Under the pieces are notes generated by a model. That model had not been told where the DNA came from and ran no database searches. It saw only the letters and a program-made list of their open reading frames with translations. This document shows positions 35,741 through 37,075 of a stretch of DNA of 64,000 bases, one piece after another (position 1 is the first letter of the stretch; every line of letters starts with the position of its first letter). This DNA is from Salipiger bermudensis. GTDB lineage: Bacteria; Pseudomonadota; Alphaproteobacteria; Rhodobacterales; Rhodobacteraceae. The position numbers were made by a program, and so were the translations under genes. Location of the stretch: NCBI RefSeq assembly GCF_019801965.1, contig NZ_JAHVIA010000010.1, positions 62,001 through 126,000 of the forward strand, given 5' to 3'.

Positions 35741-37075
35741 ATGACAAAAGCCATGAAGATCGCCATCGTCGACGACGAGAAGGACATGCGCCAGTCGATC
35801 AGCCAGTGGCTGGCGCTGTCGGGCTATGATACCGAGGCCTTTGCCAGCGCCGAGGAGGCGCTTGGCGCGCTCGGCACCGATTACCCCGGCATCGTGATCT
35901 CGGATATAAAGATGCCCGGCATGGACGGCATCCAGTTTCTCAAGAAGCTGATGGGCAATGACAGCGCGCTGCCGGTCATCATGATCACCGGCCATGGAGA
36001 CGTGCCGATGGCGGTCGAGGCGATGCGCATCGGGGCGTTCGATTTCCTCGAGAAGCCCTTCAACCCCGATCGCATGTCGGAGCTGGCCAAGAAGGCCACC
36101 AACGCGCGCCGCCTGACCCTCGACAACCGCGCGCTGCGCCGCGAGCTCTCGGATGGCGGCCAGTTGATGAGCAAGCTCATCGGCCAGAGCCCGGCGATGG
36201 AGCGGCTGCGCGAGGATGTGTTGGATTTGGGCCAGGCCGACGGCCACGTGCTGATCGAGGGCGAGACCGGCACCGGCAAGACCCTGATCGCCCACGCGCT
36301 GCACGCGGTGGGCTCGCGCGCCGGCAAGAAATTCGTGCTGCTGTCCTGCGCGGCGATGGACGAGGATGCGCTAATGCGCCGGCTCTTCGGTCCGATGCAG
36401 CCCGACCAGACGCGGCTGCCGGCGATGGAAGAGGCGCGCGGCGGCACGCTGGTGCTCGAGGATGTCGAGTCGCTGTCGGATTCGGCGCAGGCACGCCTGC
36501 TTTCGGTGATCAACGATCAGGGCACGCCGCCCGAGACCCGCATCGTCGCGATCTGCAACCTTCAGGACGAGGGCCGCACCTGCGAAAGCGCGCTGCGCCC
36601 GGATCTCTACTACCGCCTTGCGGCGCTCAAGATCACCGTGCCGCCGCTGCGCGCGCGCGGCGAAGACATCCTGACGCTTTTCACCCGGCTCTCCGAGGGC
36701 TTCGCGGATGAATATGGCTGCGATGCCCCCAAGGTTTCGGCGCAGGAGGCGGCGCAGCTGCTGCAGGCGCCCTGGCCCGGCAACGTGCGCCAGCTCATAA
36801 ACCTCGCCGAGCGCGCGGTGCTGCAATCGCGGCGCGGGCAGGGCACCATCGCCTCGCTGCTGATGAACGATCACGAGGACATGCAGCCGGTGATGACCAC
36901 GGAGGGCAAGCCGCTGAAGGAATATGTCGAGGCGTTCGAGCGCATGCTGATCGACAACACCATGCGCCGCCACAAGGGCTCTATCTCGGCGGTGATGGAC
37001 GAACTCTGCCTGCCGCGCCGGACGCTGAACGAGAAGATGGCCAAGTATGGCCTGCAGCGCGCCGACTATCTCTGA
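35741..37075 (+). CDS. DctD/NtrC-type response regulator lacking the GAFTGA loop
   Basis: 444 residues. The receiver has D55 as phospho-acceptor (VISDIKMPGMDGI) and K105. The AAA+ domain has Walker A GETGTGKT (174-181) and a Walker B-like GGTLVLEDV (234-242). Between them, where NtrC-family proteins carry the sigma54-contacting GAFTGA loop, the text reads LMRRLFGPMQPDQTRLPAMEEARGG, so the motif is absent. The C-terminal Fis-type helix-turn-helix is intact (HKGSISAVMDELCLPRRTLNEKM). Regulators without GAFTGA, such as Rhodobacter capsulatus NtrC, act without sigma54. Start ATG 35741 chosen; ATG 35753 is possible. Confidence 0.92.
   Translation: MTKAMKIAIVDDEKDMRQSISQWLALSGYDTEAFASAEEALGALGTDYPGIVISDIKMPGMDGIQFLKKLMGNDSALPVIMITGHGDVPMAVEAMRIGAFDFLEKPFNPDRMSELAKKATNARRLTLDNRALRRELSDGGQLMSKLIGQSPAMERLREDVLDLGQADGHVLIEGETGTGKTLIAHALHAVGSRAGKKFVLLSCAAMDEDALMRRLFGPMQPDQTRLPAMEEARGGTLVLEDVESLSDSAQARLLSVINDQGTPPETRIVAICNLQDEGRTCESALRPDLYYRLAALKITVPPLRARGEDILTLFTRLSEGFADEYGCDAPKVSAQEAAQLLQAPWPGNVRQLINLAERAVLQSRRGQGTIASLLMNDHEDMQPVMTTEGKPLKEYVEAFERMLIDNTMRRHKGSISAVMDELCLPRRTLNEKMAKYGLQRADYL

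Follow-up and report, generated by a model that had tools for sequence, protein, structure and literature searches.

Loopless regulators of the sigma54-activator type are already known singly, the examples being R. capsulatus NtrC, HupR, Caulobacter NtrC and VpsR. In the accessible part of PMC10274813, the NtrC proteins of R. capsulatus and Caulobacter are described as lacking GAFTGA and acting at sigma70 promoters. The two differ in their need for hydrolysis, and Caulobacter NtrC, which requires both its Walker A and its Walker B residues, both represses and activates sigma70 promoters. TyrR, DhaR and HupR are named, in the portion of PMC3162934 available to us, as members whose GAFTGA is defective and which depend on sigma70, and the same portion reports that sigma54 and GAFTGA proteins co-occur. 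S. meliloti DctD (L229), which is 37% identical to the protein described here, has GAFTGA, GKE in Walker A, the Walker B sequence LFLDEI and the helix PRKTFYDKL. In one open-access literature collection, we found neither the orthologous group described below, with its Walker B change and its sigma54-free setting, nor any description of the targets of this two-component system.

The window, a 64,000-nucleotide stretch of a Salipiger bermudensis genome, carries a dctD-type gene whose product, P0001, retains the DctD-class architecture of a receiver, an AAA+ domain (PF00158) and a Fis-type helix-turn-helix, matched by the Pfam families Response_reg, Sigma54_activat, AAA lid and HTH_8 (Table 1). 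Translation is taken from the ATG at 35741, and a longer open frame begins at 35672. The purQ-type gene ends 37 bp before the dctB start. An AlphaFold model of P0001 (mean pLDDT 85, pTM 0.53) has an AAA core that aligns with those of NtrC4, Brucella NtrX, NtrC1 and VpsR.

Table 1. Features of the purQ-dctB-dctD locus, in window coordinates
Feature	Position	Strand	Basis or remark
purQ-type glutamine amidotransferase gene	33225..33893	+	Pfam GATase_5; conserved upstream neighbour by synteny
dctB-type sensor kinase gene, partner	33931..35697	+	43 bp upstream of dctD
dctD-type response regulator P0001, 444 aa, loopless	35741..37075	+	ORF list and Pfam
Receiver domain	35741..36100	+	Pfam
Phospho-acceptor Asp55	35903-35905	+	further receiver residues Thr83, Lys105
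Walker A GETGTGKT	36260..36283	+	Thr at the position of Glu in canonical activators
L1 region remnant LFGPMQPDQTRLPAMEEARGG	36383..36445	+	GAFTGA deleted
Altered Walker B LVLEDV	36449..36466	+	
Arginine-finger region	36596..36616	+	R286 and R292
Sensor II arginine R350	36788..36790	+	
Recognition helix PRRTLNEKM of the Fis-type HTH	37013..37039	+	

The original prediction held that the loop contacting sigma54 is missing from this protein and that its Walker B is altered, and both claims are borne out by alignment. The P0001 segment RLFGPMQPDQTRLPAMEEARGGT is the counterpart of a 28-residue segment of S. meliloti DctD, and RLFGPMQPDQTRLPAMEEARGGTLVLEDV aligns to a 34-residue stretch of the same protein; the aligned loop stretch has 23 residues in P0001 against 28 in all six of the GAFTGA-bearing relatives compared. 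Across 192 clade sequences (the family orthologues, further Salipiger species, 80 named loci and a Paracoccus plasmid), not one has GAFxG, so that a variant but present loop with its Phe-Thr residues was found in none of these orthologues. Where S. meliloti DctD has LFLDEI, P0001 has LVLEDV and thus lacks the DE pair for ATP hydrolysis. At the first acidic position of Walker B, 188 of the 192 sequences have Glu (3 have Asp and 1 Lys), and at the second 172 have Asp (9 have Asn, 7 Gly, 3 Glu and 1 Ala). The recurrence of the same state across the clade rules out sequencing error or chance as the source of either change.

The remaining motifs are conserved. D55, T83, K105, G174, G177 and G179 are each present in 192/192 sequences, the Walker A Lys in 189 (the other three have Arg), R286 in 188, R292 in 189 and the sensor II R350 in 191. 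The P, R, R, L, N, E and K of the recognition helix are each found in all 189 rows that reach it, three rows being cut. The receiver, Walker A and Fis domain are therefore intact by Pfam and by motif, as had been proposed, with the nuance that the P-loop Lys is followed by Thr or Ser throughout the clade (192/192) and by Glu in the six GAFTGA-bearing relatives. Among 20 Salipiger genes (190 pairs), dN/dS is 0.076 overall, 0.10 in the AAA domain and 0.027 in the HTH, which is purifying selection. Judged from these alignments and substitution rates, P0001 is under selection and has the motifs expected of a DNA-binding protein that can bind ATP and be phosphorylated.

A search of 394 genomes of the family, spanning 393 genera, matched P0001 at E <= 1e-60 in 376, and all but 16 of these reach E < 1e-100. 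The orthologue was read in 93 of these genomes, one per genus in a selection weighted towards the best and the most divergent matches, and the loop is gone in 93/93. Among the named loci, the nearest to the window are those of Salipiger. In G092 the gene is split over two open frames, and in L262 (G356) purQ lies 0.4 kb away from the dctD orthologue and the interval contains no dctB match, so that this regulator appears to be without its kinase. Were dctD a decaying gene kept by inertia, its degenerate Walker B, the split frame and the want of an adjacent dctB match in G356 would be explained, but the dN/dS over 190 pairs, the matches in 376 genomes and the conserved synteny make this reading very improbable.

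Three further records were noted in the course of this survey. In L076 (G331), the L1 region has a short tandem expansion, GAEIGAEIGA, in place of the deletion. Records named Nocardioides marinus (L142) and Poseidoniales archaeon (L175) hold a roseobacter-type dctD, 87% and 86% identical, respectively, and are probably mislabelled or contaminated. There is also a second loopless DctD-type group with GKE and the Walker B intact (L106-L110, L113, L114, L117, L120 and L226), of which L226, on a Leisingera plasmid, lies directly before dctPQM.

Among the 93 genomes with a loopless orthologue, 40 have rpoN (E <= 1.5e-15), 52 do not and one has a weak match only. Loss of rpoN as the cause of loop loss is rejected, since the 40 rpoN-positive genomes are equally loopless. 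The presence of rpoN in so many of these genomes would also suit a regulator that in rpoN-positive relatives uses a different surface to keep working with sigma54, any loss of function in Salipiger being secondary. We give this very little credence, because none of the 40 has the loop, not even two genomes with three or four rpoN matches (G301 and G094), and because single changes in GAFTGA mostly abolish activation, according to the part of PMC3162934 at hand.

In the host genome itself (99.97% complete), neither PF04552 nor TIGR02395 finds rpoN; each profile was positive in 4 of 14 control genomes, and PF04552 gives strong matches in 127 of the 394 family genomes. PF00158 matches 14 places in the host genome, and with ClpA/B-like and other AAA matches set aside by reading, seven genes were counted as sigma54-activator-type regulators. 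None of the seven has a canonical GAFTGA. The motif is deleted in NtrC, NtrX, an NtrC-like regulator (contig C6), the window DctD, a second DctD (C7) and an AcoR-like protein (C1), and a HupR-like regulator has GAVPGA at this position, all paralogue names being assigned by sequence reading rather than family assignment. The AcoR-like regulator (L006, G000 C1:78.7k), besides being without GAFTGA, has no recognisable Walker B (LLLRRI) and has GKT in its Walker A. The sigma54 system thus appears to be gone from this genome, in line with the co-occurrence reported in the accessible part of PMC3162934. That P0001 cannot open sigma54 promoters in the usual way had been argued from the loop; because the host genome also has no rpoN, a normal sigma54-activator role is excluded more strongly than first thought.

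In a tree with the loop columns dropped, the loopless proteins group together as a single clade (34 rows, support 100/100), which is recovered in a second tree (62 rows, SH-aLRT 99). Its first branch, L100 and L101 (G204 and G305, both rpoN-positive), has the loop deleted, GKT and a canonical LFLDEV Walker B. The next branch, L102 and L103, has VVLENI and LCFKNI as Walker B sequences, plus other losses, and the crown has mostly LxLEDI; the arginine fingers are also lost in a few basal lineages (L103). Because purQ lies upstream of dctB at both basal loci, L100 and L101 are very likely the same gene. With basal members that are loopless, have a normal Walker B and sit in rpoN-positive genomes, the loop was probably lost first, and rpoN loss was not the cause. 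The simplest order is probably loop loss and then Walker B change, with rpoN lost independently and later in many lineages, an order that draws on two basal sequences in which the deletion is larger than in the crown. We tentatively offer a fuller history, which we are somewhat more inclined to doubt than to accept as a whole: a core regulator of the Rhodobacteraceae family would have lost its loop while rpoN was present, fixed GK[TS], changed its Walker B to EN or ED and become an ATP-gated, non-hydrolysing sigma70 regulator with its recognition helix unchanged, rpoN being lost afterwards in many lineages. The unpolarised minimum of loop changes on the second tree is two, in a count that left out L115 and four distant rows from the host genome; three separate losses follow only if regain is excluded, as we assume.

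Given the precedents of R. capsulatus NtrC and Caulobacter NtrC, we read P0001 as a sigma70-type regulator. We consider it probable that it is a phosphorylation- and ATP-binding-dependent regulator at sigma70-type promoters that no longer works with sigma54. In the mechanism we propose, DctB, with a changed ligand pocket, would phosphorylate DctD at Asp55, as the intact motifs suggest. Phosphorylated DctD would then bind ATP through its intact Walker A, oligomerise through the AAA+ domain and contact its operator through the PRRTLNEKM helix, and so might activate or repress promoters of the housekeeping (sigma70-type) polymerase. With the Walker B DE now ED, there may be little or no ATP hydrolysis, and ATP could serve mainly as a structural switch, a point that we hold loosely: loop loss need not mean loss of hydrolysis, and the ED pair might hydrolyse, since Caulobacter NtrC needs both Walker motifs in the account seen in PMC10274813. 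Nor would ATP use be universal in the clade, given the Arg at the Walker A Lys in 3/192 sequences and the arginine fingers lost in L103-type lineages.

The original prediction had offered a sigma70 or a repressor role; both are sensible readings of a protein for which its denial of normal sigma54 activation holds. In the purely repressing version, DctD would be a roadblock, a DNA binder switched by phosphorylation in which the AAA+ domain does no more than hold the oligomer together. Such a protein could well have the HTH as its slowest-evolving part, with an invariant recognition helix, and a loop segment whose length ranges from 13 to 33 residues across the 192 sequences, and Caulobacter NtrC, in the accessible part of the same paper, represses as well as activates sigma70 promoters. 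We nevertheless think a repressor-only role unlikely, since Walker A, both arginine fingers and sensor II are kept in about 98% of sequences, beyond what a passive scaffold needs.

The surroundings of the gene do not support the dctPQM link that the prediction implied. Of the 80 named loci, several of them on short contigs, 78 have purQ, dctB and dctD as a block and 79 have dctB. The host genome has 30 TIGR00787 (dctP) matches, none of them on the window's contig, C10, and no match to the C7 dctP occurs within 10 kb in any of the 80 loci, a search that covered dctP only and included some shorter contigs. In this genome, the DctD that accompanies dctP is a different paralogue, likewise loopless, on contig C7. 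We considered as a target a gene lying between purQ and dctB and rejected this idea after reading seven divergent loci: before dctB (before dctD in L262), five have an opposite-strand gene that is msrP-like by reading, without a family search, and two have nothing transporter-like. The DctB sensor domain (window 34075-34590) matches the structures of V. cholerae 3by9 and S. meliloti DctB 2zbb (E 7.5e-12 and 6.5e-6). At a column where both structures have Lys, 76 of 84 orthologues have Glu. That Lys presumably binds ligand, as does an Arg close to it, and the DctB ligand may therefore differ from C4-dicarboxylates. Small fitness effects are reported for the R. pomeroyi TRAP regulators SPO2630 and SPOA0237 in the part of PMC10041152 consulted.

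Operator scans of the host genome and the named loci revealed no target of P0001, and its transcriptional action is accordingly given here in conditional terms, no target promoter or operator having been found. The sequence CGGCGGATTTCCGCC lies next to the TRAP genes of two GAFTGA-bearing relatives with the same helix (L305 and L306), together with sigma54-type promoters. Allowing up to one mismatch, GGCGGANNTCCGCC is not enriched in the host genome (72 against 103 for the backward control). The string GCGGAWWTCCGC occurs six times against none in the control; by ORF reading four of these sites are inside coding frames, the dctP site belonging to the C7 paralogue accounts for a fifth, and the sixth, on C10, is located between frames and has no evident connection. 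Nine matches to GCGGANNTCCGC in 1.62 Mb of named loci share no common position. Before the C7 dctP (L203:2560-2600, G000), TGTGCGGAAATCCGCACA shares its core with the site that precedes the S. meliloti symporter gene (L231:6480), so that this palindrome is retained in a genome without sigma54, an operator outlasting its polymerase partner. The recognition helix of P0001, PRRTLNEKM, is a different one. The best sigma54-like box before this dctP scores 8/11, a value reached in 380 of 2000 shuffles and given no weight, and a strong sigma70-like match is on the strand opposite to dctP. Elsewhere in the window, the 26-base string GGTGAAGGCGGATTTCACCCTCGTCG occurs twice, at 9497 and 9791 (294 bases apart), perhaps an internal gene repeat.

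These data flag a strongly conserved two-component system in a widespread marine family, and a distinct, deeply conserved orthologue that is annotated as 'sigma-54-dependent' (in a Paracoccus record) though its host may be without sigma54. The intermediates in the loopless clade suggest an order of events, and they make testable the question of how a protein that activates a polymerase dependent on ATP hydrolysis becomes a regulator of one without such a need.

Among the known systems, S. meliloti DctD is like P0001 in its receiver-AAA+-Fis architecture and its DctB-type partner, and its receiver structures (1l5z and 1qkk) are among the best receiver matches to P0001. Unlike the P0001 locus, the S. 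meliloti gene adjoins a gene for a dicarboxylate symporter, which has the promoter TGGCAC-N5-TTGCT. Six GAFTGA-bearing alphaproteobacterial proteins (L223, L268, L274, L280, L297 and L303) have a PRRTLNEKM helix identical to that of P0001 and, unlike P0001, retain GAFTGA and GKE. The annotated Azospirillum members (L223 and L268) have a sensor-kinase-like gene directly upstream and no TRAP genes beside them, whereas L280 and L303 adjoin TRAP dctP/dctM genes and L297 a TAXI-type TRAP operon. An AU test rejects the loopless clade and seven relatives (these six and L301) as one clade (p 0.010), and the shared helix is thus an old state or a convergence.

Brucella abortus NtrX (5m7n-5m7p) is the best full-length PDB sequence match to P0001 and nearly the best fold match to its model (Z ~28), with a loop-deleted LFG segment in the alignment. 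It differs in its LDEV Walker B and belongs to a separate group that is also represented in the host genome (L002). VpsR, HupR, TyrR and DhaR are given as sigma54-activator relatives with a defective GAFTGA in the available part of PMC3162934. The VpsR fold matches the P0001 model with a Z of 24. These four proteins have other domains and partners than P0001. As in the sigma70-acting loopless NtrC-type regulators, P0001 has the GAFTGA region deleted and the receiver Asp and Walker A kept. It belongs to a different orthologous group from R. capsulatus and Caulobacter NtrC and has, in addition, an altered Walker B, and the NtrC-like gene of its own host (L005), with GKS and the DE pair in place, is separate from it.
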